The notes beneath the pieces are model-generated. The model worked only from the letters and a program-made list of their open reading frames with translations, ran no database searches and was not told the DNA's origin. A program made the translations under genes and the position numbers. Below are positions 19,769-35,844 of a stretch of DNA of 37,878 nucleotides, piece by piece. The stretch lies in contig SUVA01000010.1 of NCBI GenBank assembly GCA_015062245.1, forward strand, positions 1 to 37,878, read 5' to 3'. This DNA comes from Alphaproteobacteria bacterium (GTDB lineage: Bacteria; Pseudomonadota; Alphaproteobacteria; CAAHEQ01; UBA3637). Position 1 is the stretch's first letter, and each line of letters starts with the position of its first letter.

Positions 19769-20887
19769 ATGAAAGCAAAAATGAATTGGAAAAAGGTAAT
19801 TGGCTGGGTTGTTGCCGCACTGGTGGTTATCGGCGTGGTTGGAATAAATATGTACAATCAACAAAACAATAGTACAGGGAAAAGAAATGTTTATGCGGTG
19901 CTGCCTTTGACTGGAGGGCTCGCGAGTGTGGGTGACGAATACAAGAAAGTCATAGACAATGAAATCAAAAATACAGAATATCCCTTCCATATTGTGTATG
20001 TAGATTCTGAATCCAATCCGATGAAGGGCTTAACTGCTTTGCAGGCCGCAACTGTTTCTGCGGAAAATCCAATTGTCTTTTCGTTTATGTCTTCGGTTGG
20101 TTCGGCAATAGCCCCCTATGTTGACCAAAAGAAAGGTTTTATGTTCGCAGTTTCTTCTCAATCCATCAATACAGATGTAACTAGTTATCAACAGGTAGCT
20201 ACTTCGCTTGCAGAACAACTTGATCCACTTATCAAACACATTTTATCCCACTACAAAACTTTGGACATTGTGTACATTATGGATGAGTATGGTTTGGCTC
20301 AAAAGCGTTATGTAATCAATCAATTGAACGCTAAAAGATTTACAAAAATTCGTGAATTGGCTGTTCCGATGAATGTGTCAGACACCAGAAATGAAGTCAC
20401 AAAATTGTTGGCGCAAAATCCAGAAGCAATCTTTGTGATGGGCAATCCAACTTTGGGCTATATCAATATGTTTAAAAACTTGAAGGAACAAGGTTTTCAT
20501 GGTGATGTGCTGGCCGATGCCACTTTAAGCAATCCTTCTGTTCGTGCCAATATTGGAACACATGCAAACGGAGTCGTTTCTGTTGCGATAAAAATTGAAA
20601 CAGAGGCAAAACAATCCCCTAAGGAAGAAGTGTTAAAGAACAAAGTGGAATCCTATGGTATTGAAATTAATCCCAAACCAATTCAAGCCATAGATACGTT
20701 AAGTTTAATCAAATATACTTTGGACAACAATTTACCATTTGAACGTAAAACATATGAAAATTTAAAGAATTGGAAGAGTTGCTCAGGAGATACCATTACT
20801 TTCAAAAATGGCTTGAGCACCTACCCGACAATCTTGGTTATCTACAAAGATGGAAAGTATTATCCTGTTGAAAGTGAGGAAAAATGA
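19769..20887 (+). CDS. Membrane-anchored periplasmic binding protein 1, LivJ/LivK-like
   Basis: The 372-residue protein has residues 5-27 (NWKKVIGW followed by a Val/Ala/Ile core) as a membrane segment with no lipobox. It is therefore probably an uncleaved anchor. A short polar linker (YNQQNNSTGKRN) leads to a type I periplasmic-binding fold beginning VYAVLPLTGGLASVG (residues 40-54). A subgroup motif follows (DSESNPMKGLTALQAAT). The ligand is unknown; the fold usually binds amino acids or small amides for Liv-type ABC importers. It is the first gene after the promoter at 19597 and ends ATGA-overlapped with the next gene. It belongs to the same subgroup as the proteins at 22037, 25836 and 26962. 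Confidence 0.85.
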   Translation: MKAKMNWKKVIGWVVAALVVIGVVGINMYNQQNNSTGKRNVYAVLPLTGGLASVGDEYKKVIDNEIKNTEYPFHIVYVDSESNPMKGLTALQAATVSAENPIVFSFMSSVGSAIAPYVDQKKGFMFAVSSQSINTDVTSYQQVATSLAEQLDPLIKHILSHYKTLDIVYIMDEYGLAQKRYVINQLNAKRFTKIRELAVPMNVSDTRNEVTKLLAQNPEAIFVMGNPTLGYINMFKNLKEQGFHGDVLADATLSNPSVRANIGTHANGVVSVAIKIETEAKQSPKEEVLKNKVESYGIEINPKPIQAIDTLSLIKYTLDNNLPFERKTYENLKNWKSCSGDTITFKNGLSTYPTILVIYKDGKYYPVESEEK

Positions 20888-21990
20888 AGATAAATTGGAA
20901 AAAGATTATTGGATGGGGTTTGGCTGCGTTGGTGGTCATTGGTGTGGTTGGAAATAATATATATCAACACCGCGAGCAAAAGGGAGACAAACCAGTCATA
21001 AAAATTGGTGCTATTTTACCTTTAACAGGCGTTGTTGCACAAGGCGGACAAACGTATAAAAATCTGTATGAATTAAAGATATCTGAACTTTCAAAAGATA
21101 GCAAGTATGACTATAAATTGATTATAGAAGATGATGAATTAAACGCCCAAAAATCTATTACCGCAGCTCAAAAATTACTGAATTTGGATGATGTTGATGT
21201 TTTGATGATGTCTTACTCTGGGGCTGAACCAACTATTGCGGATATGGCCTCTAAGCAAGGTAAGGTCAGTTTTTCACTTTTATGGGATGATAAAACACCA
21301 TATGAAAACAGATACACATTTAATGCTTTACCGCTACCAACAGAATATGTTCCACAACTGCTATCAGAACTTCAAAAAAGAGGGATGAAAAAAGTTTCTA
21401 TTGTCTTCGAGAATCATAAAGGGGCACTTCAGGCATATGAAGCTTTGAAGAAATATGCCCCGGAATATGGAGTTGAAATTGTTGATACGGAATGGATAAA
21501 TGTTGGAGAACGTGATTTTAGAATCCTTGTTATGAAATTGGCCAAGAATAATCCAGATATTTACATTGTACCATCTGCCCCAATTTCGTCAACACGTTTT
21601 GTGGATGAGTTGAGAGCACAAGGAATTCAAACGCCTGTTACAGCTATTGGTTCTTTTGATTATATTGAAGACAAAACTCCCTATGAAGGTGTGTGGTATG
21701 TTTCCGACAGTATCATCAACAATGAAATGGAACAAAAATACAAAGAAACGTATGGAAAAGATTTGTTAATGTCCCAAACACTATGGGGATATGAAGCACT
21801 AAATGCTGTAATTAACGCTTATGAATCGTTTGATGTAAAACCAACCGCAGATCAATTAGTTAAAAAATTGTATGAAAAGAGAACAAATACCGTTGTGGGT
21901 GATGTACAATACAAAGGTAATGGTATTTTACATGGCAATGGCATTATGAAAATTATTAAAAATGGCAAGGCAGTGAAGTTAGAAGAATAA
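20884..21990 (+). CDS. Membrane-anchored periplasmic binding protein 2, LivJ/LivK-like
   Basis: The 368-residue paralogue starts with NWKKIIGWGLAALVVIGVVG (residues 3-22) and a linker with YQHREQKGDKP. The domain then opens IKIGAILPLTGVVAQGG. It carries the subgroup motif EDDELNAQKSITAAQKLL, shared with the proteins at 32206 and 34756. Its ATG overlaps the previous stop (ATGA), so the two are translationally coupled. The stop is followed within 3 bp by an 8-codon copy of the livH start. Its linker DNA (about 20936-20990) is nearly identical to that at about 23870-23925 in the fourth paralogue. Ligand unknown. Confidence 0.87.
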   Translation: MKINWKKIIGWGLAALVVIGVVGNNIYQHREQKGDKPVIKIGAILPLTGVVAQGGQTYKNLYELKISELSKDSKYDYKLIIEDDELNAQKSITAAQKLLNLDDVDVLMMSYSGAEPTIADMASKQGKVSFSLLWDDKTPYENRYTFNALPLPTEYVPQLLSELQKRGMKKVSIVFENHKGALQAYEALKKYAPEYGVEIVDTEWINVGERDFRILVMKLAKNNPDIYIVPSAPISSTRFVDELRAQGIQTPVTAIGSFDYIEDKTPYEGVWYVSDSIINNEMEQKYKETYGKDLLMSQTLWGYEALNAVINAYESFDVKPTADQLVKKLYEKRTNTVVGDVQYKGNGILHGNGIMKIIKNGKAVKLEE

Positions 21991-21993
21991 AAC

Positions 21994-22020
21994 ATGCAGA
22001 TATTATTAAATGGACTTTAA
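21994..22020 (+). pseudogene. livH 5' fragment (8 codons plus stop), first copy
   Basis: ATG followed by codons for QILLNGL then TAA. These 24 coding bases match the first eight codons of livH at 24956, and the stop replaces the ninth codon (TGT). A second copy is at 23771. It is followed by TAGAAAGGAG, the ribosome site of the next binding protein. Confidence 0.85.
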
Positions 22021-22036
22021 ATAGAAAGGAGTTAAA

Positions 22037-23140
22037 ATGAGTAAGATTAATTGGAAAAAGGTAATTGGATGGGCTGTAGCCGCACTGATGGTCATTGGTG
22101 TGGTTGGATTCAATGCTTATAAAGAGCAAAATCTAACAAATAAGAAAAGAATTTATGCAATCTTACCAATTACAGGAAGTTTATCTTTTCAAGGTAAAGA
22201 AGAAAAGAAAACCATGGAAGTTTGGATGCAAAATCATCCAGATGCCCCATTTGAATTGGAAATTTTGGATAATGAATCCAATCCAACAAAAAGTTTAACC
22301 TTGGCGCAACGTGCCGCTATGAATGATAAAGAACCTTTATTCATTTGTCCAACTGGTGCAATGTGTCATCCGATTGTTCCACAACTTAAATCCATGAATG
22401 GTTTTATGATTTTGTCACCAAGTACACAGGAAGAAGATGGAACATATAAAGAATTTCAGCGAATTTCTTTCGGTTCTGCCGATATGAATAAACCTTTAAT
22501 TGATTATGTAGAATCTGGGAAAACTGTGGTTATCATGAATTCAAATGATATGGCTGGGCATACAGGGGCTACAAAAACAGAGGAAACCCTAACAAAAAAA
22601 GGAGCAAAAATAATAGAAAAATTGGCTTTTGATACAAAAGAATTAGATATGAGAATTATTGCGTTAAAAGCAATGTCTTATAAACCAGATATTATTTTTG
22701 TTATCAGCCCACCAACCATTGGCTTTTTGAATGTAATTAAGGAATTAAAAGTACAGGAATTCCCAGGTGTTGTTTTGTCAGATCCTGCACTAAGAACACC
22801 ATCTATTGCAAGTCAATTAGGAAAGGATGCAGAAGGAGTTTATACCTCTATTATGCCAACAGAACGGATTTATAAAGAATATCCACAGGTGGCCAAAGCG
22901 TTAGAGGAAAATGGTTTGGAATTGTATAATTTCCCCATTAATGTTTGGGATATTATGGACGTTATGAATCACTTTATAGCCAATAACATTCCTTTCAATC
23001 AAGATGAATTTTTGAAAATGGCTAAATGGCATGGTATTTCCAGTGATATTACTTTTACACCTAATGGAAACAGTGCTTATGAATTCATGTTGTCCATTGT
23101 AAAAAATGGGAAGTTTGTTTCAGTGGAGAAAAATCAATGA
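22037..23140 (+). CDS. Membrane-anchored periplasmic binding protein 3, LivJ/LivK-like
   Basis: The 367-residue paralogue has the anchor at about residues 4-25 (INWKKVIGWAVAALMVIGVV), then KEQNLTNKKRIYAILPITGSLSF. The subgroup motif is LDNESNPTKSLTLAQRAA. It contains two Cys (about residues 102 and 108, within FICPTGAMCHP) that the close paralogues lack and that could form a disulfide. An AAAGGAG ribosome site directly follows the first livH fragment. The methyltransferase gene starts ATGA-overlapped with its stop, so the two are co-translated. Ligand unknown. Confidence 0.86.
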   Translation: MSKINWKKVIGWAVAALMVIGVVGFNAYKEQNLTNKKRIYAILPITGSLSFQGKEEKKTMEVWMQNHPDAPFELEILDNESNPTKSLTLAQRAAMNDKEPLFICPTGAMCHPIVPQLKSMNGFMILSPSTQEEDGTYKEFQRISFGSADMNKPLIDYVESGKTVVIMNSNDMAGHTGATKTEETLTKKGAKIIEKLAFDTKELDMRIIALKAMSYKPDIIFVISPPTIGFLNVIKELKVQEFPGVVLSDPALRTPSIASQLGKDAEGVYTSIMPTERIYKEYPQVAKALEENGLELYNFPINVWDIMDVMNHFIANNIPFNQDEFLKMAKWHGISSDITFTPNGNSAYEFMLSIVKNGKFVSVEKNQ

Positions 23141-23769
23141 AAACCAGGGAGGCATGGAATCAGGTTTATATAGAACATGGGGAAAATGTCCCTTGGGCTG
23201 TTGAACCAGAATTAAACCAATGGAATATCCAAACTGTTTCAAAATATTTAGAAGAAAATCCAACAGGGAGAACCTTGTTGGATTATGGCTGTGGTTTAGG
23301 ACAGGTAGCTGAACATTTTCGCCAAGAAGGTTATCAAATAGAATTAGCCGATTTATCAGAAATAGTCACGGAAAAATTAAAGAAAAAATACCAAAATAAA
23401 GTTCCTGTGTATTTAGTTGAAGAGCCAAAGGATATTTCTAAAAAATCAGCCTATGATGTTATTTTGGCTATTGGCGTTTTTCACCATCTAAATCCAAACA
23501 AATGGGCATCATTTTTGGAAGATTTTTATAATCTTTTGAAAAAAGACGGCATTGTGTTTATTGCTGGTTGGGATGAAACAGATGAAGAAATTAGCCGAAT
23601 TCAAGAGAGTGCATACTCACATTTGTTAAGATGGCCTGTAAATAGTTTGAAACAATATGTCAATCAAGATAAATTTCAAATTTTAGCAGATTCCGCTTCT
23701 AAAATCAGGTATGAAAGTTTTTCATTTTTAAGAACTATGCATTATTTTGTTTTGAAAAAGAAAGATTAA
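23137..23769 (+). CDS. Class I SAM-dependent methyltransferase
   Basis: The 210-residue cytosolic enzyme has the SAM-binding motif LLDYGCGLG (residues 47-55), an acidic ADLSE (71-75) as motif II, and YDVILAIGVFHHL (106-118) as the motif IV region. No signal peptide is present. The N-terminal W-x-Q-x-Y and PW elements recall small-molecule methyltransferases of the TehB or thiopurine type, but the substrate cannot be read from sequence. It overlaps the preceding binding-protein stop by 4 bp (ATGA), so the two products are made together. The substrate may be the compound taken up by the system, or the gene may be passive cargo of the cassette. Confidence 0.88.
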   Translation: MKTREAWNQVYIEHGENVPWAVEPELNQWNIQTVSKYLEENPTGRTLLDYGCGLGQVAEHFRQEGYQIELADLSEIVTEKLKKKYQNKVPVYLVEEPKDISKKSAYDVILAIGVFHHLNPNKWASFLEDFYNLLKKDGIVFIAGWDETDEEISRIQESAYSHLLRWPVNSLKQYVNQDKFQILADSASKIRYESFSFLRTMHYFVLKKKD

Positions 23770-23770
23770 C

Positions 23771-23797
23771 ATGCAGATATTATTAAATGGACTTTAA
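23771..23797 (+). pseudogene. livH 5' fragment (8 codons plus stop), second copy
   Basis: Identical to the copy at 21994-22020, including the premature TAA and the following ATAGAAAGGAG. It sits 1 bp after the methyltransferase stop. The intact livH at 24956 has the same first eight codons. Confidence 0.85.
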
Positions 23798-23815
23798 ATA
23801 GAAAGGAGAAATAAA

Positions 23816-24952
23816 ATGAGTAAGATGAATTGGAAAAAGGTAATTGGATGGGGTGTGGCCGCATTGGTAGTCATTGGTGTGGTTGGAAATAATATATATC
23901 AACACCGCGAACAAAAAGGCGATAAACCTGTCGTAAAAGTCGGAATTATAGCCCCACTTTCTGGTGAATATGGGCAGGTTGGCCAAGAAGTGCTAAAGGG
24001 TATTCGTTTGGCGGTCAAACAAAATGAATCAAAAATGCCATCTTTTGCTGTATCCATAGATGCAAAGGATAGTAAAGCATCCACATCAGAATCAATTACA
24101 GCCTTTCAACAACTTTTATTTTCAAAAATTCAAGCAGCCATATTAGTGGGTGACCCACCAACAATGGCAGTATCTCCTTTAGCAATTCAAAACAAAATAC
24201 CAACAATTGCTACATTGGCTGGTGAAGCTGGTTTTATTTCGCAAAATCAAGATAGATACTTATTTTTGAACTTTTTACCGCCAAGGGTTGCAGGAATAAG
24301 AACAGGTAAGTATGCAAAAGGTTTAGGATTGAAAAGAGTGGCTATTTTGTCTTTACAAGCCCCTGAACCTCTTGATTTAGCAACGGGTTTTGAAACGGGA
24401 TATGGTATTCCACCAGTAATTCATGACACTTATGATGTGAAAGATACAGATGCTCGTACAGAAATTTTACGTCTTCTTGCAAAACAACCAGATGGCATAT
24501 TCATCACAGGTTATGGGATGACCTATTATGCCTTTATAAAAGCATTAAAAGAGCAAGATTATCAGGGTGTTTTGATGTCTAATGCATCTATCACAGACCC
24601 CAAAGGAATTGAAGTGACAGATATCAGCAACATTATATTCTCTCAAGCCAAAGATATGAAGTTAGACGAAAATTCGGATTATCAAAAATTTGAACAAGAA
24701 TATGTGGCAGAATATAAGGAAAAGCCAACAATGTTTTCTCGGTATGGATATGATTCTATGCGCTTACTGTTAGAGGGTATTCAACGTGGAAACGGAACTA
24801 CTTCTGGTCAAATTCATGAAGGTTTGAAGACTATTACAAGTTATGATACATTTGCAGGAAAATTGGAATTTTTACCAAATGGAGTTTCCAGTTTGTCAAC
24901 ATCAATCTATAAAACCAATAAAGATGGTTCAGCAAATCTGTTGGAAGAATAA
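23816..24952 (+). CDS. Membrane-anchored periplasmic binding protein 4, LivJ/LivK-like
   Basis: At 378 residues this is the longest paralogue. The anchor (NWKKVIGWGVAALVVIGVVG) and YQHREQKGDKP linker are followed by VVKVGIIAPLSGEYGQVGQEV, the closest in the array to classical branched-chain amino acid binding proteins. The motif GIRLAVKQNESK near residue 62 also fits LivK-type proteins. It stands directly before livH (ATG 3 bp after its stop), as in canonical liv operons, so it may be the ancestral binding protein of the system. The ribosome site AAAGGAG follows the second livH fragment. Confidence 0.88.
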   Translation: MSKMNWKKVIGWGVAALVVIGVVGNNIYQHREQKGDKPVVKVGIIAPLSGEYGQVGQEVLKGIRLAVKQNESKMPSFAVSIDAKDSKASTSESITAFQQLLFSKIQAAILVGDPPTMAVSPLAIQNKIPTIATLAGEAGFISQNQDRYLFLNFLPPRVAGIRTGKYAKGLGLKRVAILSLQAPEPLDLATGFETGYGIPPVIHDTYDVKDTDARTEILRLLAKQPDGIFITGYGMTYYAFIKALKEQDYQGVLMSNASITDPKGIEVTDISNIIFSQAKDMKLDENSDYQKFEQEYVAEYKEKPTMFSRYGYDSMRLLLEGIQRGNGTTSGQIHEGLKTITSYDTFAGKLEFLPNGVSSLSTSIYKTNKDGSANLLEE

Positions 24953-24955
24953 AAC

Positions 24956-25825
24956 ATGCAGATATTATTAAATGGACTTTGTAATGGAATGGTGATTGCC
25001 TTGTTGGCGATTGCTTATACTGTGGTGTACTTGCCAACTCGGATATTCTTTATCGCCTTGGCGGGGATTTATGTGGGGTGTGCGTACTTGACGTGGGAGA
25101 TGCTGGGCAAAGGCATCCATGTCGGCTATGCCATCGGGCTCAGCGTGGCTTTGGGTGCAACCCTTTCGGTGTTGTGCGAACTGTTGAACCATCGGGCATT
25201 GGAAAAGCACAAAGCATCGGACGGGGCACACATGATTTCCAGCTTGGGCATCTATATGATTATGATTCAGGCGGTAGCGATTATCTGGGGGAATGAGCCA
25301 AAGATATTAAAAACAGGGCTGGAAACAACCTATCACTTGATGGGTTTTACGGTGGCCAGTTCCCAAGTGATTAACTTGGTTGCGGCCAGTATTGCTGTGG
25401 GTGGATTCTTTTTGTGGTTGAAACGTAGCAGTTTGGGATTGTTGTTCCGAGGGTTGGCGGATAATCCAACACAGATGGCACTGCTGGGCTATGATACCAA
25501 CAGATTACGCTTGGTGGCGTTTGGATTGTCGGGGGCTATGGCGGGATTTGCGGGAATCCTGTCAGCGTATGATTTGGGCTTTGACCCCTATACGGGAATG
25601 AATGCGATTTTGTTGGCGGTAATAGCCACGATTATCGGAGGCAAGACAAACTTTGTGGGGCCGTTGCTGGGCGGATTGATTTTGGGCATCCTGCGTGCAG
25701 AGGTTGTGTGGTTTTACTCAGCCCGCTGGCAAGAGGCCATCACTTTTGTGATTTTGGTGGTGTTTTTGCTATTAAAGCCGGACGGATTATTGGCCAAGGA
25801 AGGCCGTTTGGAATCGCGGGAATAA
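24956..25825 (+). CDS. livH: Branched-chain amino acid-type ABC permease LivH
   Basis: The 289-residue permease has about eight membrane segments. It starts MQILLNGLCNGMVIALLAIA, the usual LivH opening, and contains GLADNPTQMALLGYDTNRLR near residues 170-189, the region expected to contact the ATPase (EAA-like loop). It ends with FLLLKPDGLLAKEGR, as in LivH. With LivM it would form the channel of a HAAT-family importer. Its base composition is visibly richer in GC than the binding-protein genes around it. It is the only livH in the window for nine binding proteins. Confidence 0.93.
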   Translation: MQILLNGLCNGMVIALLAIAYTVVYLPTRIFFIALAGIYVGCAYLTWEMLGKGIHVGYAIGLSVALGATLSVLCELLNHRALEKHKASDGAHMISSLGIYMIMIQAVAIIWGNEPKILKTGLETTYHLMGFTVASSQVINLVAASIAVGGFFLWLKRSSLGLLFRGLADNPTQMALLGYDTNRLRLVAFGLSGAMAGFAGILSAYDLGFDPYTGMNAILLAVIATIIGGKTNFVGPLLGGLILGILRAEVVWFYSARWQEAITFVILVVFLLLKPDGLLAKEGRLESRE

Positions 25826-25835
25826 AGGAGGAAAG

Positions 25836-26945
25836 ATGAAACTAAATTGGAAAAAGGTAATTGGTTGGAGTGTGGCTGCAGCAGTTGTGGTAGGTATTGT
25901 GGGATTTAATATGCACCAGCAACAAAACACCGACACTTCCAAGAAAAATGTGTATGTTCTTATTCCTTTATCTGGACCAATAGCACAATCTGGGCATGAT
26001 TATCAAAAAGCCTTAACCTATGCGTACGATAATTTGAAAAATCCTCAAATTCGTCTTGTTTTTTTAGATGATGAATTTAATGCAACAAAGGCTGTCACTG
26101 CTTTGAGTCAGGCAACACTTAATGATGAAAATCCTTTAGTTGTTGCTTGGGGGGCTATTATTTCTTTTGCCGCAATACCTGCGGTGAAAAATGGTTTTGT
26201 TATGGCGGGAGGAACGGTGGAATTAGATGACCTAAAGAAATTTGATAACTACCACAGATTTTCTGTCGCTTCCAGTGCGACTACCGAATTAGCGACCAAT
26301 TATTTGGCAAAAGAAAACAAGAAAATCGGACTTTTATACTCGTATGACATGTATGGTTCCAATGGTTATAAAGTATTTTCATCTATCATGAACCAAAAGA
26401 ACATTCCTTTTGTTGCAATGGATTTTGATCCGAATACCCTTTCTATTCGGGATATAACTGCAAAATTCTTACTGAAAAATCCAGATATAGACACTATTTT
26501 TATTTCGGCCACAGCAACAGCACCTTTCTTAAAACTGTTTCAAGAATTAAGAGAGCAAGGATTTACTGGAAAAATTGTATCCGATATGTCATTTGCCCAG
26601 AAGTTTGTTTTAGATTCATTGGGAAAGTATGCTGAAGATGTTGTTTTTGTGACACTTGAACCACATTTGGACAATCCAAGGACTACGCAAGCAAAAGAAT
26701 ACCGCGATTTTGCCTTAAGAAATGGGATGTATCCTTCATTCAGTTCAATAGAAGGCTATGATATGGTTAATATCATAAACAAAATGATGGAAAAAAAGAT
26801 TCCATTTACACAAAAAAGTTTTACGGACATGAAAGAATATGATGGTGTGTCAGGAAAGGTGTTATTTCCAAGTACAGGGAACACAGCATACCCATTTATT
26901 TTAGCACAAGTTAAAAATGGCAAGATTATCCCTGTGACCGAATAA
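25836..26945 (+). CDS. Membrane-anchored periplasmic binding protein 5, LivJ/LivK-like
   Basis: The 369-residue paralogue has the anchor NWKKVIGWSVAAAVVVGIVG at residues 4-23, then a polar linker (HQQQNTDTSKKN) and the domain start VYVLIPLSGPIAQSG. The subgroup motif is DDEFNATKAVTALSQATLND. It ends KNGKIIPVTE, and that 3' end plus the following TAAAGAAAGGAGAA is repeated after the genes at 26962 and 29003. A strong AAAGGAGG ribosome site follows livH. Ligand unknown. Confidence 0.87.
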   Translation: MKLNWKKVIGWSVAAAVVVGIVGFNMHQQQNTDTSKKNVYVLIPLSGPIAQSGHDYQKALTYAYDNLKNPQIRLVFLDDEFNATKAVTALSQATLNDENPLVVAWGAIISFAAIPAVKNGFVMAGGTVELDDLKKFDNYHRFSVASSATTELATNYLAKENKKIGLLYSYDMYGSNGYKVFSSIMNQKNIPFVAMDFDPNTLSIRDITAKFLLKNPDIDTIFISATATAPFLKLFQELREQGFTGKIVSDMSFAQKFVLDSLGKYAEDVVFVTLEPHLDNPRTTQAKEYRDFALRNGMYPSFSSIEGYDMVNIINKMMEKKIPFTQKSFTDMKEYDGVSGKVLFPSTGNTAYPFILAQVKNGKIIPVTE

Positions 26946-26961
26946 AGAAAGGAGAATTGAC

Positions 26962-28090: not shown

Positions 28091-28990
28091 ATGAACTATA
28101 TGTGGCATTTGATGATATACTTCGGGATTTACGGTGTTTTGGCCTTATCCTTGAACATTTTGGTGGGGGCATGTGGCTTGCTGACTTTGGCACACGCGGG
28201 ATACTTTGCTTTGGGTGCCTATACCTACGCCATTACAACAGTGGCCTTTGGTGTAGATACCATGACAGCCATCGGGCTTTCGGTCGGAATGGCCGCATTG
28301 TTCAGCTTGATGATTTCCTTGCCCACGTGGCGATTAAAGGGAGATTACTTTGTTATTGCTTCTATCGCTATTCAAGTGCTGATTTACAGTGCTATTTACA
28401 ACTGGGTGGAAAGTAATGCCCCCTTGGGCACAGCGGACAACATGACAAACGGTCCGTTTGGTATTTCCTCTATCCCCAGGCTGAACATTTTTGGATTTCA
28501 TCTGGATACGATGCCGAAAGTGACGCTGATTACTTTGTTGGTGTTGGGGGCTGTGGCATGGATAAACAAAAAGTTGCTCTTTTCGCCATGGGGACGCGTG
28601 CTGAATGCGATGCGAGATGATGAACTGGCCGCCCGCAGTATTGGGAAAAATGTGCAATTCTATAAGGTTGAGGCGGTCTTTATCGCTTGTGTGTTGGCGG
28701 GCTTTGCAGGTGCGTTGTATTCCGGATACGTCAGCTATATTGACCCAACATTGGCCACGATGGACCAATCCATTTTGTTCCTGTCTATGGTGCTGGTCGG
28801 TGGAACAGGCAATGTGCGTGGACCTTTGACAGGGGCGTTATTGTTATTGGTGATTCCGGAAATCTTGCGTATGTTGCAAATTCCTGATAATATAGCGGCT
28901 GAAGCACGGATAATGTTATACGGATTGTTGCTGATCGTGATGGTGCACGTCCGCCCGAAAGGTTTGCTTGGAAACTATAAACTGGATTAA
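28091..28990 (+). CDS. livM: Branched-chain amino acid-type ABC permease LivM
   Basis: The 299-residue permease has about eight membrane segments. Family features are ALSLNILVGACGLLTLAHAG near residues 18-37, GRVLNAMRDDELAARSIGKN near residues 172-191 (ATPase contact loop), and VGGTGNVRGPLTGALLL near 236-252. It pairs with LivH to form the membrane channel. The N-terminal extension common in longer LivM proteins is absent, but 299 residues is within range. GC-rich composition resembles livH, not the binding proteins. It is the only livM in the window. Confidence 0.93.
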   Translation: MNYMWHLMIYFGIYGVLALSLNILVGACGLLTLAHAGYFALGAYTYAITTVAFGVDTMTAIGLSVGMAALFSLMISLPTWRLKGDYFVIASIAIQVLIYSAIYNWVESNAPLGTADNMTNGPFGISSIPRLNIFGFHLDTMPKVTLITLLVLGAVAWINKKLLFSPWGRVLNAMRDDELAARSIGKNVQFYKVEAVFIACVLAGFAGALYSGYVSYIDPTLATMDQSILFLSMVLVGGTGNVRGPLTGALLLLVIPEILRMLQIPDNIAAEARIMLYGLLLIVMVHVRPKGLLGNYKLD

Positions 28991-29002: not shown

Positions 29003-30103
29003 ATGAATTGGAAAAAGGTAATTGGTTGGGGGGTGGCTGCACTGGTGGTCGTGTGTGCTGTCTATACCAATGTGCAACGAAACAAAACAGATAATTGGCG
29101 TGTTTATGGTTTCTTTGCATTGACAGGAAAAGTTGCTTCTGCTGGAACGGAAATGTCAAAAGGGATGGAGTTAGCCGTTGAAAAATGGAATAATAATGGT
29201 GGACTGTTGGGCAAAAAAATCTCTTATATTGCAGAAGATACCAAAGGTGATCAAACTGAAGCTATTACAATTTACCAAAGAGCAATTGCAGGAACTGATA
29301 ACAAACCCATTGCAATCCAATCCATTGTCAGTGGGGTAACATTAAATGTTAAGAACTTTAGCGAAAAAGATGGGATTCCTTTAATTGGTGCAATAGGTTC
29401 ATCAAAATTTTTGGAAGAACCAAACAACTATGTTATCCGTGATTTTGCTTCCCCTAACATCATTGGGAAAGGTTTTGTAGAATACATTCAAAAATATCAT
29501 CCCAATAAACGCATTGTTTATTTTTATGAAAATTCGGATATGTCTATTGAAACAAAAAAATCTTTTTTGAATGCATTACCAAAGGAGACAAATATTCACT
29601 TGGTTGATTTTGACCCTAATACAACACATTTTAGAGAACTTGTTTTAAAAGCAAATATTCAAAATGGAAAAGATGTTGTTGTAATTACAGGATTGGGCTC
29701 ATATATGGGGATTTTGGTTCGTCAATTGCGGCAATATGGGTATACAGATAACATCGTCAGTGATACAAATATGATGATTTCTGGAACAAAAGAGTACGCT
29801 GAAGATGCAATGAAAAATGTTGTTATTTTGGATTTTATGCCAAACTCAGAAAATCCGTACTGTCAAGAAATCGATAAGGCCTATCAAGAAAAATATGGTA
29901 AAAAAGTTCCGTTTAATGCTCCATATTTGTCCTATCAAGGGATTGATACATTATTGGCATTTTATGAAAAGATGGGAACAACAGATATTCCAAATTTAGC
30001 CAAAGCAATGGAAGGTTTTGAACATGATGGTTGTTTGGGAAAAGTTACTGTTAAAAATGGAGAAATGAATTATCCGTTATCCTTCAAAACTGTGACCGAA
30101 TAA
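29003..30103 (+). CDS. Membrane-anchored periplasmic binding protein 7, LivJ/LivK-like
   Basis: The 366-residue paralogue starts at ATG 29003 after AAAGGAG. The anchor has a divergent end, VVVCAVYTNVQRN, with a Cys inside the membrane segment that does not form a lipobox (no small residue pair before it). The domain begins WRVYGFFALTGKVASAGTEM and includes ELAVEKWNNNGGLLGKKI, a classical LivK-type stretch. It is one of the two most canonical members, with the protein at 23816. It follows livM directly and ends with the repeated VTE-TAAAGAAAGG junction. Ligand unknown. Confidence 0.87.
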   Translation: MNWKKVIGWGVAALVVVCAVYTNVQRNKTDNWRVYGFFALTGKVASAGTEMSKGMELAVEKWNNNGGLLGKKISYIAEDTKGDQTEAITIYQRAIAGTDNKPIAIQSIVSGVTLNVKNFSEKDGIPLIGAIGSSKFLEEPNNYVIRDFASPNIIGKGFVEYIQKYHPNKRIVYFYENSDMSIETKKSFLNALPKETNIHLVDFDPNTTHFRELVLKANIQNGKDVVVITGLGSYMGILVRQLRQYGYTDNIVSDTNMMISGTKEYAEDAMKNVVILDFMPNSENPYCQEIDKAYQEKYGKKVPFNAPYLSYQGIDTLLAFYEKMGTTDIPNLAKAMEGFEHDGCLGKVTVKNGEMNYPLSFKTVTE

Positions 30104-30116
30104 AGAAAGGTGTGAA

Positions 30117-30614
30117 ATGGCAATGAAAATACAGAAAAAAACAACAAAACGTGTGGCTCAGTCCCCCCTCATAAAATTAAGAGGGGGGAACGGGGGGAGC
30201 TTAACGAATATAAGCCCCTCTGACACTAAAGTGCCATCTCCCCTTAAAATTATGGGGAGACATGAAAAGCTTATTTCCAATGCCAGACAATTACGCCACA
30301 ATGCAACAGAGGCAGAAAACAAGATATGGCAATACTTACGCCAAAAACAAACTGGTTATCGCTTCTATCGCCAATATGTTTTTGATGACAAATATATTTT
30401 GGATTTTTATTGTGCCAAAAAGAAACTTGTTTTAGAAATTGATGGTGGACAGCACAATCAAAATGCTGATGATAAAGTTCGTGATGCTTATCTAAATAAT
30501 CGTGGATGCCAAATCTTACGGTTATGGAATAATGATGTATTAAATAACATAGAGGGCTGTTGGGATATGATTGAAAGGGCTTTAAGCTCCCCCAACCCCC
30601 TCTTGAAATCATGA
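30117..30614 (+). CDS. DUF559-type endonuclease-like protein
   Basis: The 165-residue protein's conserved part starts at about residue 47 and contains NARQLRHNATEAENKIWQYL, GYRFYRQYVFDDKYILDFYC and LVLEIDGGQHN. The Asp/Glu/Gln pattern (D-F-Y-C, E-I-D-G-G-Q-H) is the very-short-patch-repair-like nuclease core of DUF559 proteins. The first 45 residues come from repetitive, GC-rich sequence and may not be structured; a start near 30252 is possible. The gene lies inside an inverted-repeat cassette (30181-30204 and 30582-30602) between a binding protein and the ATPase gene, so it looks inserted. The biological role of this family is not established. Confidence 0.8.
   Translation: MAMKIQKKTTKRVAQSPLIKLRGGNGGSLTNISPSDTKVPSPLKIMGRHEKLISNARQLRHNATEAENKIWQYLRQKQTGYRFYRQYVFDDKYILDFYCAKKKLVLEIDGGQHNQNADDKVRDAYLNNRGCQILRLWNNDVLNNIEGCWDMIERALSSPNPLLKS
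30181..30204. repeat. Left inverted repeat of the DUF559 cassette
   Basis: GAGGGGGG-AAC-GGGGGGAGCTTAA pairs imperfectly with 30582-30602; the inner 12 bp (GGGGGAGCTTAA) match exactly. A CCCCCCTC/GAGGGGGG hairpin (30163-30188) adjoins it, and CTCCCC/GGGGAG (30238-30259) follows. Confidence 0.7.
30582..30602. repeat. Right inverted repeat of the DUF559 cassette
   Basis: TTAAGCTCCCCC-AA-CCCCCTC is the reverse complement of the left repeat apart from a few bases. It overlaps the last codons of the DUF559 gene and forms a small hairpin with GAGGGGG just downstream. Confidence 0.7.
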
Positions 30615-30623
30615 GGGGGCAAT

Positions 30624-32141
30624 ATGCAAAAAAAAGGTGTTAAGAAAATGCAACCTAAACCACAGGAATCACGCCGTGTTATCCTGCGTGCCAGTCATAT
30701 CCGCAAGGCCTTTGAGGGCAACGAGGTCTTGAAAGATGTGAGCCTGGAACTCCACGAAGGTGAAGTTATGCTGTTGCAAGGGGATAACGGTTCGGGAAAA
30801 ACAACCCTTATCAACATTTTAACGGGGAACTTAATGCCCTCACGCGGTCGGATTACTTTGGCCACAGACCCGAACAAAATCCGCCATTTTCGCTTTCCAA
30901 TTCCGTTTTGGCGCAGGACTTTGTCGTTCACTTACTTTTCGCCGGAACGTTTTGCCAAAGAAGGTCTTGCCCGCATGTGGCAGGATGTCCGTTTGTTTTC
31001 CAGCCAATCGTTAAAGGACAACATTGTGGTTGCAAAAGCCCATCAACGGGGCGAAAATCCTTTGCGGGCTCTGATAACTCCGTGGCAGATTGATAAAGAT
31101 GAAGCCACTTTGACCCAAATGGCCAAAGAAACCCTGAAAAAATTCGGGTTAGAGGGGCGTGAAAATTCATCAGGCAGTCGCGTATCCCTTGGCCAATCCA
31201 AACGCGTGGCAATCGCCCGGGCCATCTATTCGGGGGCCAAGATTTTGTTCTTGGATGAACCTTTGGCCGGCCTGGACAACGAAGGCATTAAACAAATGCT
31301 GGACTTTTTACATGCTTTGGTCAAAGAACATAACACTTCTATCGTGATTGTGGAACACGCCTTTAATATTCCCAAGATTTTGGACTTGGTGGACGGCGTG
31401 CTGACCTTGAAAGACGGCGTCATTACCCGCAACACCAAGGCCGAAGTGTTTAAATCAGAGGCACGTGAACACAAAGACGCTATGTTGGAATGGCTGACGG
31501 CTTTTGCGGGAAAGACGGGGCGGACGGATATTATCCCTTTACCCAATGGGGCACGCCTGACCATTGCCCGCAGGGATCCTGTGGCCCCTACGGTGTTTGA
31601 AGTCAAAAATCTAACCGTTGCACGAGAGCACAGACCTGTTATTATTGAACCGATGGCATTTAAAATAAACAAAGGTGATATTGCTTTGTTGGAGGCCCCG
31701 AACGGTTGGGGAAAGTCCACCTTGATGGATGCGATAACGGGCGTGATTGCACCGAAAACGGGAACGATTTTACTGCATAATGAACACATAACAACCCTGC
31801 CGATTTGGACAAGGGCCAAGAAAGGATTGTTGCTGTCGCGGTCAAGCAATGTGCTTTTCAAGTCCGTAACGGTGGCCGAAAACAAACGCTTGGCACGGGT
31901 AAAACGTGCCGAACTGGGCGAAAGATTTTTGACGCGTCAAGGGGGTAGCTTATCCGGTGGTGAAAATCGGCGGATTTCATTGGGACTGGCTTTGTATCAG
32001 TATAAACGTGATATGGTATTGTTGGATGAGCCCTTTCAAGCCATGGACACCGCACAGGAAGAAATCGCACGTGGTAAGATTTCTTTGGAGGCCCACAACG
32101 GCAAAACCTTCCTGATTACCATCCCCAAGATTTATGAGTAG
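30624..32141 (+). CDS. Fused double-NBD ABC ATPase, LivG-LivF-like
   Basis: The 505-residue protein joins two nucleotide-binding domains that are usually separate LivG and LivF. NBD1 has Walker A GDNGSGKT (53-60), signature SLGQSKR (188-194), Walker B ILFLDEP (207-213) and the H-loop His245. NBD2 has an altered Walker A APNGWGKS (first Gly replaced by Ala, 358-365), signature LSGGE (443-447) and Walker B MVLLDEP (464-470). It ends only 35 residues later at FLITIPKIYE, lacking a recognisable His/Gln switch. One site may therefore be degenerate. The start may be 30624 or the in-frame ATG at 30648; the first eight codons lie next to the DUF559 cassette. It is the only ATPase for the array. Confidence 0.85.
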   Translation: MQKKGVKKMQPKPQESRRVILRASHIRKAFEGNEVLKDVSLELHEGEVMLLQGDNGSGKTTLINILTGNLMPSRGRITLATDPNKIRHFRFPIPFWRRTLSFTYFSPERFAKEGLARMWQDVRLFSSQSLKDNIVVAKAHQRGENPLRALITPWQIDKDEATLTQMAKETLKKFGLEGRENSSGSRVSLGQSKRVAIARAIYSGAKILFLDEPLAGLDNEGIKQMLDFLHALVKEHNTSIVIVEHAFNIPKILDLVDGVLTLKDGVITRNTKAEVFKSEAREHKDAMLEWLTAFAGKTGRTDIIPLPNGARLTIARRDPVAPTVFEVKNLTVAREHRPVIIEPMAFKINKGDIALLEAPNGWGKSTLMDAITGVIAPKTGTILLHNEHITTLPIWTRAKKGLLLSRSSNVLFKSVTVAENKRLARVKRAELGERFLTRQGGSLSGGENRRISLGLALYQYKRDMVLLDEPFQAMDTAQEEIARGKISLEAHNGKTFLITIPKIYE

Positions 32142-32144
32142 GTG

Positions 32145-32173
32145 TTGCAATCGTGAACAGTTTTGGTTATAAT
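32145..32173 (+). promoter_or_regulatory. Promoter of binding protein 8 (TTGCAA-N17-TATAAT)
   Basis: TTGCAA (32145-32150) and TATAAT (32168-32173) are spaced by 17 bp and begin just after the ATPase stop. The downstream part matches the promoter at 34695. Confidence 0.8.
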
Positions 32174-32205
32174 GAAAAAAATTCAAACAGAAAAGGAGTT
32201 TTAGT

Positions 32206-33297
32206 ATGAAAAAGTTTTTAGGTTGGGCTCTGGCCATTTTAGTCGTTGTCGGTGTCGTGGGATATAATGCATATCAACATCGTGACCAAAAGACGGATAA
32301 ACCTGTTGTTAAAATTGGCTTAGTTTACCCCATGAGTGGTGCTATGGGGCACATTGGAAAAGGTGTAATGAATTCGGCAAATATGGTTTTGAATAAAATC
32401 AACCAAGACCCTAATCGCCAATTTAATTATCAATTGATTGCCCAAGATGATGAAATGAAAGCTCCAAATACAATTACCATCGCCAATAAATTAATCGGTG
32501 TAGATAAAATTAATGTTTTAATGACAAGCTGGTCTGGACCAAGCAATGCTGCAAAACCTTTAATGATTGAAAACAATTTGATTCATTTTACGGATAGCTA
32601 TACAACATTGTCAGACGGAAAAAATATTTTTAACTGTTCTGTTACCAATGAAGATTTAGCCCCAATGGCATTTGATTTTATTAAAAAAAGGAATGCTAAA
32701 AAAGTTGCTTTGATTTTTCAACAGGTTCCTGCAGGTGCAGAAATTTTAAGTATGTTAGAGCCCAAACTAAAAGAAAGTGGCATCAAATATGATGAATATT
32801 TATATGGAGGAACAGAGTTTGATGCTTTTCGCACAATGGTAGCCAGTGTGAAAGCAAACAATTATGATTTGATTTTATTATATGGATGGTCACCCGGCAT
32901 TGTTTTTGTAGCACGTGAATTAAAATCTCAAGAAGTCAATGTCCCCGTATTAGGATTTGATACTGTGGAAACCGCAAACTATGATTTTACTTACTTTGAT
33001 GGTATTTATGAAATTGGAAAACCTTATAAACAAGAATGGGAAGAATTTTTAAAATCAAAACATCCAGACGCTGTTTATATGTATGATGCCATGAATGTGA
33101 TTGTGAACACTTATGAAAAAGCGGGAAAACAATTGGGACGTATTCCAACAACAAAAGAATTCCGTGATATAATGTACCAGCAACGTGATTATCAAGGACT
33201 AATTGGAAACGTACATTTGGAAGATAATGGATTACTACGTGTCCCAACTTTCTTGAAGAGAATAGAGGGAAATAAAATCATTCCTGTGGAAGAGTAA
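32206..33297 (+). CDS. Membrane-anchored periplasmic binding protein 8, LivJ/LivK-like
   Basis: The 363-residue paralogue has an anchor variant, MKKFLGWALAILVVVGVVGY, shared only with the protein at 34756. The linker YQHRDQKTDKP is followed by VVKIGLVYPMSGAMGHIG. The motif QDDEMKAPNTITIANKLI places it with the proteins at 20884 and 34756. It has its own promoter (32145), ribosome site AAAAGGAG and leader, nearly identical to those of the gene at 34756, so the two are recent relatives. Ligand unknown. The MATE exporter gene follows after 14 bp. Confidence 0.87.
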   Translation: MKKFLGWALAILVVVGVVGYNAYQHRDQKTDKPVVKIGLVYPMSGAMGHIGKGVMNSANMVLNKINQDPNRQFNYQLIAQDDEMKAPNTITIANKLIGVDKINVLMTSWSGPSNAAKPLMIENNLIHFTDSYTTLSDGKNIFNCSVTNEDLAPMAFDFIKKRNAKKVALIFQQVPAGAEILSMLEPKLKESGIKYDEYLYGGTEFDAFRTMVASVKANNYDLILLYGWSPGIVFVARELKSQEVNVPVLGFDTVETANYDFTYFDGIYEIGKPYKQEWEEFLKSKHPDAVYMYDAMNVIVNTYEKAGKQLGRIPTTKEFRDIMYQQRDYQGLIGNVHLEDNGLLRVPTFLKRIEGNKIIPVEE

Positions 33298-33311
33298 GGT
33301 CTTTTTGAACT

Positions 33312-34652
33312 ATGTCCCAGATTAATACCATCAATAGGAAAACTATTGGGCAATCTATATTCAGTTTGGCTTTTCCGGCTGTTATATCCTCATTGGTCAC
33401 GGTTTTTTATAATTTAGTTGATTTGTTCTTTATCGGCCAAATCAACGACCCCAATCAGGTAGCTTCTATTGCTTTAACAATGCCGGTATTTATGTTGATT
33501 ATCGGATTTGCTTCGGTTCTGGGGGTAGGTGGTGCTTCCTATGTTTCCAGATTATTAGGGGAAAAGTTATATATTCAAGCCAAAAAAGTATCTTCTTTTT
33601 GTTTTTGGATAGGTTTAATCTTAGGTGGCATTTTTAATATCGTATTTGTTATGAATATGTCTTGGTTGGCGGATTTAATGGGATGTTCCGAAATGACAAA
33701 AGGTCCTGCATCCGGTTATCTGACGATTTGCAGTTATGGGGCGTATTTTTTAATTTTACAGGTTATCTTCAGCTTTATTATCCGGGCCGAAGGAGCATCC
33801 AAAGAATCGACTATCGGTATGGCGTTGGGAACAGTTATCAATATTATTTTAGACCCTTTGTTTATTTTAAAAATGGATATGGGTGTCCAAGGTGCTGCGT
33901 TGGCAACCGTTATAGGGGCAGGTGTCGGAACGCTTTATTATCTTTATTATCTGTTTTATGATAAACAAACGATTTTGTCTATCTCTTTAAGATGGTTTCG
34001 CTTGAAAAAGAATGTCATACAAGAGGTTTTCGGTGTGGGGTTCCCAACGGCAGTTTCTTTTGGGTTAATGAGCACCTCCATTATCATTTTAAATAACTTT
34101 CTTTCCTCTTATGGGGATGTGCCTGTGGCCGCAATGGGAATTACCGTTCGTTTATTTTCGTTTATTCCCTTAATTCAAATTTGTTTTTCTTCGGGGGTTC
34201 AACCGCTTATCGGCTATAATTTCGGGGCTAAAAATATAAATAATTTACAGGGCATTATTAAATTATCATGCAAAATCTTATTTTTAATAGGAATGGGATT
34301 TTTTGTTGTTTTGGAAGTATTTGCACCGTTTTTCGCCTCTCTTTTTATCCAAGACAAAGAAGTATTACAATTATCAACTCATTTTATCCGAATTCATACA
34401 TCAATAGCACCGGTATTGGGCTTTTTCTTCTTTTCTGTTACCATTTTGCAATCTGTGGGGCAAAAACTGATACCTTTGATTTTATCCGTCGTCCGACCAA
34501 TCGTCTTATTGGTCCCGATGGTGTATTTACTGTCTTCAACTTGGGGGTTATACGGTATTGTTTGGGCGCAACCCATTTCGGATATTTTATCCGTTATCTT
34601 GGCGATACTGTTATCAAAATTGACATTGAGGAAAATTTTTATAAAGGAATAA
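33312..34652 (+). CDS. MATE family efflux transporter
   Basis: The 446-residue inner-membrane protein has about twelve hydrophobic segments in two related halves. The opening GQSIFSLAFPAVISSLVTVF and YNLVDLFFIGQ, and the later GVGFPTAVSFGLMST, fit MATE proteins, which export organic cations, drugs or metabolites in exchange for H+ or Na+. It follows the eighth binding protein by 14 bp and ends at the terminator at 34658. Substrate is unknown. Placed inside an uptake island, it may export an end product or a toxic compound, or simply be cargo. Confidence 0.9.
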   Translation: MSQINTINRKTIGQSIFSLAFPAVISSLVTVFYNLVDLFFIGQINDPNQVASIALTMPVFMLIIGFASVLGVGGASYVSRLLGEKLYIQAKKVSSFCFWIGLILGGIFNIVFVMNMSWLADLMGCSEMTKGPASGYLTICSYGAYFLILQVIFSFIIRAEGASKESTIGMALGTVINIILDPLFILKMDMGVQGAALATVIGAGVGTLYYLYYLFYDKQTILSISLRWFRLKKNVIQEVFGVGFPTAVSFGLMSTSIIILNNFLSSYGDVPVAAMGITVRLFSFIPLIQICFSSGVQPLIGYNFGAKNINNLQGIIKLSCKILFLIGMGFFVVLEVFAPFFASLFIQDKEVLQLSTHFIRIHTSIAPVLGFFFFSVTILQSVGQKLIPLILSVVRPIVLLVPMVYLLSSTWGLYGIVWAQPISDILSVILAILLSKLTLRKIFIKE

Positions 34653-34657
34653 ATCCT

Positions 34658-34686
34658 AAACTCCCCACCAATCGGGGAGTTTTTTT
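34658..34686 (+). terminator. Terminator after the MATE gene
   Basis: AAACTCCCC (34658-34666) pairs with GGGGAGTTT (34674-34682), followed by T-run. The same element, differing in one loop base, recurs at 35850. Confidence 0.92.
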
Positions 34687-34694
34687 ACACCCCC

Positions 34695-34723
34695 TTGCAA
34701 TTGGGAATAATTTGGGTTATAAT
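34695..34723 (+). promoter_or_regulatory. Promoter of binding protein 9 (TTGCAA-N17-TATAAT)
   Basis: TTGCAA (34695-34700) and TATAAT (34718-34723) are spaced by 17 bp, immediately after the MATE terminator. The leader that follows is nearly identical to that of the gene at 32206. Confidence 0.82.
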
Positions 34724-34755
34724 AGGGAAAATTTAAACAGAAAAGGAGTTTTAGT

Positions 34756-35844
34756 ATGAAAAAGTTTTTGGGTTGGGCTTTGGCCATTTTAGTCGTTGTC
34801 GGTGTTGTGGGCTTTAATGCGTATCAACATCATGAACAAAAGGGTGTTAAACAAGTTGTAAGGATTGGTGTGATTGCACCGATGACAGGTGCTAATTCCT
34901 TAATGGGAAAGCAATTTCAAAGAGGTTTGGAATTATTGAAAAAAGATAAAAAATATAGCGTTGATTATGAATTAATTTATGAAGATGACCAAATGTTGGC
35001 AACGAACACTGTGACAGCGGCTAAAAGATTGATTGACTTGAAAAATGTTGATGTCATTTTAACATATGCCTCGCAAGCCGCAGGGGCTATTGCCTCAATT
35101 ATAGAAGAAAATAAGGTTCTCCACTTTTCTGGTAGCTCTGATATGAGTTTAACACAAAAAGGATACAACTATATTATGGGACCAACACCTGAAGATGATA
35201 TGAAAACATTGTTTGATTATTTACAAAAACGTGGGTATAAGCGTTTAGCTTTGATTTTAGAAAATGATTCTTATGTGAAATTGATACAACCCCACATTCA
35301 TCAATTTGCAAAGGAAAAGGGTATTGAAATCGTTTTTGAAGATAACATTCAACCATCCGATAGAGATTTCCGAATTTTGCTGACAAAAGCAGAAAAAACA
35401 AATCCTGACATATATCTTTTACAGGCGTTTAATCCCGTTTTTGACATTTTAGTTAGACAATTAAGTCAATATGCACCTAACAAACCATTTACAGGGGCGT
35501 ATGTAGCTGGTTCTCAATCACAACAGCCAGAACTCATGGAAGGTCAAGCATTCTTGGATGTGGACACAACGGATTCCAATTTTATTCAAAGATACAAAGA
35601 GGAATACAATACAAAACCAGAACAAATGGCTGTTATCGCATATCCTATGTTAGACATATTATTGAAAACAATTGAAACGGGGGTAAATTTGAAGGATGAA
35701 AAAGCCTTTCAAAAAGCATTGAATGAAGTCAATGTGAATAATATGACGATTTTAGGTAAGGTTCGTATAGATGGTCGCAAATTGAATTATTATCCTATTA
35801 TTCAACAATTCAAAAATGGGAAACTTTCTCCTGTTGAAGAATAA
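34756..35844 (+). CDS. Membrane-anchored periplasmic binding protein 9, LivJ/LivK-like
   Basis: The 362-residue paralogue has the same anchor and leader as the protein at 32206, then linker YQHHEQKGVKQ and domain start VVRIGVIAPMTGANSLMG. The motif EDDQMLATNTVTAAKRLIDL fits the subgroup of 20884 and 32206. It is a free-standing unit with its own promoter (34695), ribosome site AAAAGGAG and terminator (35850). A single transcription unit of this kind is what a movable cassette would look like. Ligand unknown. Confidence 0.88.
   Translation: MKKFLGWALAILVVVGVVGFNAYQHHEQKGVKQVVRIGVIAPMTGANSLMGKQFQRGLELLKKDKKYSVDYELIYEDDQMLATNTVTAAKRLIDLKNVDVILTYASQAAGAIASIIEENKVLHFSGSSDMSLTQKGYNYIMGPTPEDDMKTLFDYLQKRGYKRLALILENDSYVKLIQPHIHQFAKEKGIEIVFEDNIQPSDRDFRILLTKAEKTNPDIYLLQAFNPVFDILVRQLSQYAPNKPFTGAYVAGSQSQQPELMEGQAFLDVDTTDSNFIQRYKEEYNTKPEQMAVIAYPMLDILLKTIETGVNLKDEKAFQKALNEVNVNNMTILGKVRIDGRKLNYYPIIQQFKNGKLSPVEE

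Follow-up and report, generated by a model that had tools for sequence, protein, structure and literature searches.

One LivHM-type importer in the 1.12-Mb genome of a gut bacterium (G000) is probably served by many interchangeable receptors that are kept as cassettes. In the window (the whole 37,878-nucleotide stretch of DNA that was analyzed), nine intact ORFs encoding Peripla_BP_6 receptors were found around single ORFs for LivH, LivM, and a fused ATPase (Table 1), as the sequence-only reading of this DNA had proposed. The nine receptor ORFs were all complete, on the plus strand, and 362 to 378 amino acids in predicted length, and each exceeded the curated PF13458 (Peripla_BP_6) cutoff in a profile search. 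The single permease set described in that reading held within the window but not genome-wide, as a second LivH/LivM/LivG/LivF set, with eight receptors, was found at a second locus on another contig (C19).

Receptor array and pump genes

The array was broken by three unrelated genes, coding for a methyltransferase, a DUF559-type protein, and a MATE transporter. A Methyltransf_23 gene also accompanied receptor genes at two places in a related genome (G043).

Table 1. Features of the receptor array, with positions in the window
Feature	Positions	Strand	Remarks
Receptor 1, Peripla_BP_6	19769..20887	+	Subgroup I
Receptor 2, solute-binding protein fold	20884..21990	+	Subgroup II; AlphaFold2 mean pLDDT 88.3
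Scar 1	21991..22031	+	Exact copy of livH bp 1 to 25, with ribosome site, immediately 5' of receptor 3
Receptor 3	22037..23140	+	Subgroup I; AlphaFold2 mean pLDDT 88.3
SAM-dependent methyltransferase, Methyltransf_23	23137..23769	+	
Scar 2	23768..23808	+	41-bp exact repeat of scar 1, immediately 5' of receptor 4
Receptor 4	23816..24952	+	Subgroup III; C19-type binding domain with window-locus leader
LivH-type permease, BPD_transp_2	24956..25825	+	Scars 1 and 2 derive from its first 25 bp
Receptor 5	25836..26945	+	Subgroup I
Receptor 6	26962..28074	+	Subgroup I
LivM-type permease, BPD_transp_2	28091..28990	+	
Receptor 7	29003..30103	+	Subgroup IV; nearest solved proteins 4obb/4nqr
DUF559-type protein	30117..30614	+	
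Fused LivG-LivF-type ATPase	30624..32141	+	505 amino acids, two NBD halves
Receptor 8	32206..33297	+	Subgroup II
MATE family efflux transporter	33312..34652	+	
Terminator-like direct repeat, copy 1	34647..34694	+	48 bp, 94% identical to copy 2
Receptor 9	34756..35844	+	Subgroup II
Terminator-like direct repeat, copy 2	35839..35886	+	48 bp

Both permease ORFs matched PF02653 (BPD_transp_2; E values of 6.7e-29 for LivH and 2.4e-39 for LivM), and their best NCBIfam matches were LivH/LivM/Urt-type models, with scores under the equivalog cutoffs. The first half of the ATPase contained a Walker A motif (GDNGSGKT), a Walker B motif, an H-switch (EH), and a signature motif (SLGQS). In the second half, LSGGE and a Walker B motif were present, the Walker A motif started with A (APNGWGKS), and the H-switch histidine was absent; a canonical site paired with a degenerate one is therefore expected. 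The two BPD_transp_2 permeases, Peripla_BP_6-fold receptors, and two NBDs with ATPase motifs are those of HAAT/LIV-type systems, and a high-affinity amino-acid/amide-type (LivHMGF, HAAT) ABC importer is the best reading of the predicted proteins. IlvC was absent across the whole family, so import is needed. The ligands probably differ between receptors, and amino acids plus further small nutrients needed by a small auxotrophic genome are likely candidates.

Each receptor would combine a membrane-directed (signal-anchor-like) leader with a binding domain that has its own pocket. Loaded receptors would dock by turns on LivH-LivM, and the fused ATPase would power import. Silent-cassette variation, with incomplete donors and one expression site, was rejected because all nine copies were full length, each with a start and a ribosome site. 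An Mpi-family invertase beside the array (36556 to 37173) was considered as a phase-variation switch and rejected for now, since the inverted repeats were weak and no invertible promoter was found at receptor starts. Neither an Rfam match indicating a riboswitch or other RNA control nor a tRNA indicating a tRNA-linked island was found in the window.

Receptors and importers across genomes

Together with an orphan receptor on contig C6, the genome encoded about 18 receptors and two importers (18 PF13458 versus 4 PF02653 matches). Multireceptor liv loci were sought in other genomes and found in three relatives, all rumen bacteria (G037, G002, and G043), each with about 25 to 30 receptors and two importers. 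PF13458 and permease matches numbered 30 and 4, 32 and 4, and 27 and 4, respectively, where each PF13458 count includes an LpoA-like match and a few fragments. Receptors thus outnumbered importers by roughly 9 to 15 to 1 in the four genomes. Across 56 further families of the class, PF13458 matches outnumbered PF02653 matches, among the matches listed, in none of the genomes with at least five receptors (match counts in the largest genomes were at least about 29 and at least about 36). No extra permease sets were found beside receptors in the related genomes, and these genomes contained no LivHM-class permeases beyond the two known sets.

The sequence-only reading had one channel accepting many receptors, each with its own ligand, and we still infer this from the ratios, the lack of extra permeases, one pump found with two receptor sets, purifying selection, and the pockets. 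Sharing would require that receptors with identities down to 16 to 19% all fit one LivHM surface, and some receptors could be sensors or serve the second pump. It is unlikely, on balance, that only one or two receptors feed the importer and that the rest, co-encoded by chance, sequester ligand, act as sensors, or partner other membrane proteins. Lone or paired receptors were scattered in G002 and G037 with no permease adjacent, and most pockets lacked the amino-acid residues of LivJ, as that alternative would have it. However, receptors were interleaved with the LivH, LivM, and ATPase genes, all on the same strand and separated mostly by short gaps, in the window as well as in G037, G002, and G043; the orphans shared leaders and purifying selection; and no other LivHM-class permease was available to them.

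All of the genomes were metagenome assemblies of 20 to 90 contigs, and such fragmentation makes chimeras possible. A G037 contig (C25) carried a 141-bp repeat at both ends, a typical assembler overlap size. It is nevertheless hardly credible that the array and its hybrid receptors arose from collapsed or chimeric contigs, because the pattern recurred in four genomes, including one array on a 163-kb contig from another record set (SUUJ01000005), the nine ORFs of the window were all intact within one contig, and synonymous-site rates between orthologous domains were normal. The window scars also lay inside that one contig. In the closest relative (G030; RpoC 96% identical, no receptors), no clean empty site was found, as synteny stopped right after rpoC in both genomes.

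If nine to fifteen receptors do work with one LivHM pump, the uncultured gut Alphaproteobacteria that have genomes of ~1 Mb widen their diet via receptors rather than transporters, which bears on the nutritional versatility of small auxotrophic genomes. The arrays would be natural receptor libraries for one pump, so that comparison and reconstitution could test what surface a receptor must present to a type I importer. They also caution against labeling every receptor "branched-chain amino acid-binding."

Binding domains, leaders, and exchange between genomes

Binding domains in the window were 16 to 38% identical to one another. The at least three subgroups that had been claimed do exist, but binding-domain identity separated four: subgroup I (25 to 38% identity); subgroup II, which included the C6 orphan (24 to 29%, except that receptor 2 and the orphan shared 62%); and subgroups III and IV, with one receptor each. 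AlphaFold2 models of receptors 2 and 3 matched 4ey3, 3td9, and 4n0q. A comparison of ligand pockets, suggested by the same reading, yielded nine different pocket strings for the nine receptors, and pocket columns varied more than other columns (equally variable random draws, 10/20,000). Ser79, Thr102, and acidic residue 226 of LivJ occurred together only in receptor 8, in a low-identity alignment. Orthologous binding domains, orphan receptors included, were under strong purifying selection (dN/dS, 0.02 to 0.13), and the cross-species orthologues indicate that the domains are old and have been kept apart. Recent amplification of one receptor for redundancy or dosage, with the same ligand(s) for all, would account for the near-identical DNA of leaders and junctions; the low domain identity, the four subgroups, the distinct and unusually variable pockets, and the age of the domains make it very improbable.

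The leader, the ribosome site, and sometimes the C-tail were near-identical DNA among receptors of one genome. Window leaders had a hydrophobic stretch of 16 to 18 residues and neither a lipobox nor a clear AXA site (they may still be cleaved after VVG or GRA); receptor relatives in G043 had clear lipoboxes. The nearest neighbor was in the same genome for 70% of leaders and 30% of domains. For 28 of the 34 receptors that had a binding-domain partner of at least 60% identity in another genome, the best leader match was an unrelated paralogue in their own genome. Receptor 4 paired a domain nearest to second-locus receptors with a window-locus leader and was flanked on both sides by 28-bp segments identical to the start of livH. 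No livH 5' scar was found at other loci; in the search for core-gene scars, these were present only in the window array. The 200-bp upstream-plus-leader segment of receptor 9 repeated that of receptor 8 with 82% identity, and the two terminator-like repeats enclosed receptor 9.

Domains and pumps also appear to have been exchanged between genomes. Two genera with pump genes 62 to 74% identical shared one binding domain at 96% identity, and a domain pair from G037 and G002 had a dS of 0.36, compared to a dS of >2.5 for the pump genes at that locus. Between G000 and the distantly related G043 (RpoC, 67%), the LivH, LivM, and ATPase sequences were 94 to 98% identical, and these near-identical pumps were surrounded by unrelated receptor sets, that of G043 consisting mainly of lipoproteins without the window-type anchor. 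No LivM relative indicating viral carriage of the pump was found in IMG/VR with the patterns used.

It is quite possible, if short of probable, that these loci form a receptor-cassette system, in which binding domains are mobile modules across loci and species that take on the leader and junction of the resident receptors through recombination and so give a constant importer new specificities. The pump would be transferred as well and combined with the receptor sets it meets locally (membrane anchored or lipoprotein). New, already diverged domains would come in by recombination or horizontal transfer and be inserted next to pump genes or at other genomic positions; the leader, the ribosome site, and sometimes the C-tail would then be homogenized to the resident type. 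Rather improbable is the alternative that the leader is an address tag, a locus-specific anchor that docks each receptor on its own pump, with homogenization reflecting selection for right pairing. Leader class tracked the locus even where the domain did not (receptor 4), leader protein identity was high, and second-locus codon identity moderately exceeded chance (0.51 to 0.53 versus 0.38 to 0.41), an excess small enough that purifying selection accounts for part of leader conservation. The address tag is weakened, however, by the G043 pump with its mainly unanchored lipoproteins, and copied leader DNA extended into the ribosome site and the preceding C-tail, which points to recombination.

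Comparison with known systems

The earlier suggestion of an undescribed system was too strong, since receptor sharing is already established. In Borrelia burgdorferi, the Opp receptors OppA1 to OppA5 serve two permease pairs (PMC5736914), and the likeness extends to receptors with different pockets, few permeases, a reduced amino-acid-auxotrophic genome, and tandem plus dispersed receptor genes. The Opp receptors belong to another family, however, and window-type genomes have about 9 to 15 receptors per pump; the excerpts of that paper describe no cassette-like discordance between leader and domain such as that of the window receptors. In Pseudomonas aeruginosa, five receptors (DppA1 to DppA5) likewise share one pump, and deletion and complementation led to DppBCDF being credited with transport and the receptors with recognition (PMC4206461). 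Dpp differs as a peptide transporter of another family with fewer receptors, and homogenized leaders are not reported in the excerpts of that account. Receptor sharing is also the subject of a 2010 commentary by Thomas, "Homes for the orphans" (listed among the references of PMC3223731).

The scale of receptor expansion and the cassette exchange look new, and homogenized leaders, insertion scars, a second locus, and genome-wide orphans are a more unusual part than receptor sharing. Such arrays were not found described in the literature on livK-type receptor expansion. The window array resembles E. coli LivJ/LivK-LivHMGF in its Peripla_BP_6 receptors, LivH/LivM permeases, and LivG/LivF-type ATPases, but E. 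coli has two receptors per pump (livJ and livK, beside livHMGF), whereas the window has nine, interleaved with the pump genes. The window system further differs in its fused NBDs with one degenerate half, its conserved membrane-directed leader, and the absence of most LivJ ligand residues. The nearest outside relative found for the pump was that of "Candidatus Thiosymbion oneisti" (L062; LivH 50%, LivM 53%, and ATPase 44% identical), with the ordinary arrangement: a single receptor next to the pump and, genome-wide, 4 receptors to 6 permeases. Its fused ATPase also lacked the second H-switch.

Receptor arrays and their distribution

The contig (37,878 bp, from a 1.12-Mb genome that is 94% complete) fills the window. 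Chromosomal genes lie at its left, with Pfam matches to nusG, rplK, rpoB, and sua5 and an ORF assigned to rpoC by position and by full-length homologues at 67 to 96%. ORFs predicted to encode LivH, LivM, a fused ATPase, and nine binding proteins (receptors, named by start coordinate) share one strand, with mostly short gaps and a recurring ribosome site, AAAGGAG. All nine receptors exceeded the Peripla_BP_6 cutoff in a profile search. The sequence-only reading had placed nine receptors around one importer; this held within the window, but the array also includes intervening ORFs for a methyltransferase, a DUF559 protein, and a MATE transporter, and a second pump set was found on contig C19, where LivH, LivM, LivG, and LivF are surrounded by eight further receptors. 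A third contig, C6, carries a single orphan receptor with a mosaic relationship to 20884 of the window: its domain is 62% identical in protein and its last third 76 to 93% identical in DNA. The whole genome contains four PF02653 permeases, and the one PF13458 match beyond the 18 receptors is to an LpoA-like protein. We infer that several receptors share one pump here.

Beside receptor genes, a Methyltransf_23 methyltransferase was found in three places in two genomes. An Mpi-family serine DNA invertase adjoins the window array, where no convincing inverted repeats were found with it; a relative (E = 1.1e-74) lies on a contig shared with arrays of yak-rumen bin G002.

Coordinates of features in the window and in related loci
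Feature	Location	Coordinates	Strand
Receptor array	window	19769-35844	
rpoC ORF	window	8957-13093	
livH start	window	24956	
Fused ATPase	window	30624-32141	
Fused ATPase	L059 (G043)	13435-15018	
Fused ATPase	L026 (G037)	3487-5091	
Fused ATPase	L062 (Candidatus Thiosymbion oneisti)	6121-7695	
Methyltransferase	window	23137-23769	
Methyltransferase	L059 (G043)	16456-17085	
Methyltransferase	L067 (G043)	2047-2700	
DNA invertase	window	36556-37173	-
Invertase relative	L055	5811-6491	
Decayed receptor	L023 (G002)	607-1668	
Decayed receptor	L056 (G037)		
Exact 141-bp repeat	L026 (G037)	1-141, 7209-7349	
Pilin-like proteins	L011	111-1136, 9030-9770	
Pilin-like protein	L009	118-894	

A LivH scan covering 85,000 species genomes returned five loci, in a SIG43 metagenome bin (G043; 96% identity), yak-rumen bins G037 (87%) and G002 (75%), Thiosymbion (50%), and Gracilibacterium (31%). 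Distribution was patchy, with zero or one PF13458 match in most of 43 family genomes and 30, 32, and 9 in G037, G002, and G018, which have 4, 4, and 1 PF02653 permeases; SIG43 has 27 matches versus 4 permeases, and Thiosymbion 4 receptors to 6 permeases. Across 56 other families of the class, receptors outnumbered permeases in none of the genomes that had five receptors or more (counts for the largest genomes being minimum values), compared with 18 to 4 in the source genome. The closest relative (G030; RpoC, 96%) lacks receptors apart from the LpoA-like one. Split or fragmentary receptors in G002 and G037 are as expected under birth and death.

Leaders and binding domains

By sequence comparison, the leader and the binding domain of each receptor differ in history. 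Binding-domain identity among window receptors was 16 to 38%, the mosaic orphan excepted, and leader types followed locus (NWKKVIGW..VVGxNxY in the window, KKLIW..VFGGRAW on C19, and the lipoprotein type MKKVLLSLLMATSLVACGEKTExPKEN in G043). The leader and ribosome site, often with the preceding C-tail, were near-identical in DNA among paralogues with unrelated domains. Exact leader-region repeats spanned 41 bp in the window, 72 bp on C19, and 60 bp in G043, and receptors 32206 and 34756 shared a 200-bp repeat at 82% DNA identity. Among 112 receptors, the nearest neighbor lay within the same genome for 70% of leaders and 30% of domains. A domain counterpart with 60% identity or more was present in another genome for 34 receptors, 28 of which had their best leader match in an unrelated paralogue within their own genome. 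At conserved leader residues, codon identity (0.51 to 0.66; chance, 0.38 to 0.48) exceeded chance in all groups, though only modestly in the second locus; selection on the leader therefore contributes as well.

In G043 (L059 and L064 to L070), a near-identical LIV pump lies amid mainly lipoprotein receptors rather than signal-anchor-like ones. Pilin-like proteins in one genome, with a conserved N terminus (MVEMLGVLAIVGVLSVGGVYGYG) and a divergent remainder, are perhaps another constant-leader, variable-body family.

Apparent movement of domains, receptors, and pump

Binding domains appear to move between loci and genera. Receptor 23816 combines a domain of second-locus type (8 of 8 nearest) with a window-type leader. 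Between G037 and G002, which belong to different genera, one domain showed 96% protein identity (dS, 0.36) that broke off at the leader and at the stop codon; LivM and LivH of that locus were 62 to 68% identical (dS, >2.5). Receptors 22037 and 23816 are each preceded by an exact copy of the initial 25 bp of livH; both copies lie upstream of the true livH start and abut the receptor's own ribosome site. Because these scars are 100% identical across 41 bp while the receptor domains are saturated, they record insertion of already diverged genes. Receptor 34756 is flanked by two terminator-like 48-bp repeats (94% identical).

The pump itself also appears to move between genomes: LivH, LivM, and the ATPase of the source genome and G043 were 96%, 98%, and 94% identical (dS, 0.33 to 0.62), RpoC just 67%, and receptor sets were not in common. 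The repeat at both ends of L026 (contig C25 of G037) lies within a receptor C-tail with which contig C14 ends as well. It reflects either overlap introduced by the assembler where a repeat recombines or a circular 7.2-kb unit carrying the ATPase and five receptors.

Pockets, predicted function, and known shared importers

Receptors appear functional and unlike in their pockets. dN/dS was 0.02 to 0.13 for orthologous binding domains, orphans included, and AlphaFold2 models of 20884 and 22037 (mean pLDDT, 88.3) matched solved leucine- and aromatic-acid-binding proteins. The pocket-residue comparison that the sequence-only reading had called for used eleven aligned positions, which we take to be ligand contacts of the E. 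coli LivJ/LivK structures (letters confirmed on the E. coli sequence), and yielded nine different strings for nine receptors. Pocket entropy was above that of random columns (10 of 20,000 draws). Ser79, Thr102, and an acidic residue at 226 were kept only by 32206 in a low-identity alignment, which limits residue-level claims.

Pump sharing by several receptors is established in other systems, and reportedly was treated in a 2010 commentary by Thomas, "Homes for the orphans" (cited in PMC3223731). Examples are five OppA proteins in Borrelia (PMC5736914) and DppA1-A5 in Pseudomonas (PMC4206461). The present arrays differ from these in receptors per pump, interleaving with pump genes, leader homogenization over unrelated domains, insertion scars, and intergenus exchange of domains or pump. 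No description of these differences was found in the literature searched; they, rather than sharing itself, look new.

IlvC was absent from 12 of 12 family genomes tested, a search of the source genome for SBP_bac_5 peptide receptors found none, and the reduced genomes of ruminant-gut RF32, a group to which the source genome may belong, have reportedly lost amino acid biosynthesis (PMC8199421); in nature, the two pumps would thus import many small nutrients. One half of the fused ATPase is canonical and the other degenerate, a feature common to Thiosymbion, so the pump is probably asymmetric. The fused LivG-LivF-type form, its second half partly degenerate, is kept from rumen Alphaproteobacteria to Thiosymbion.
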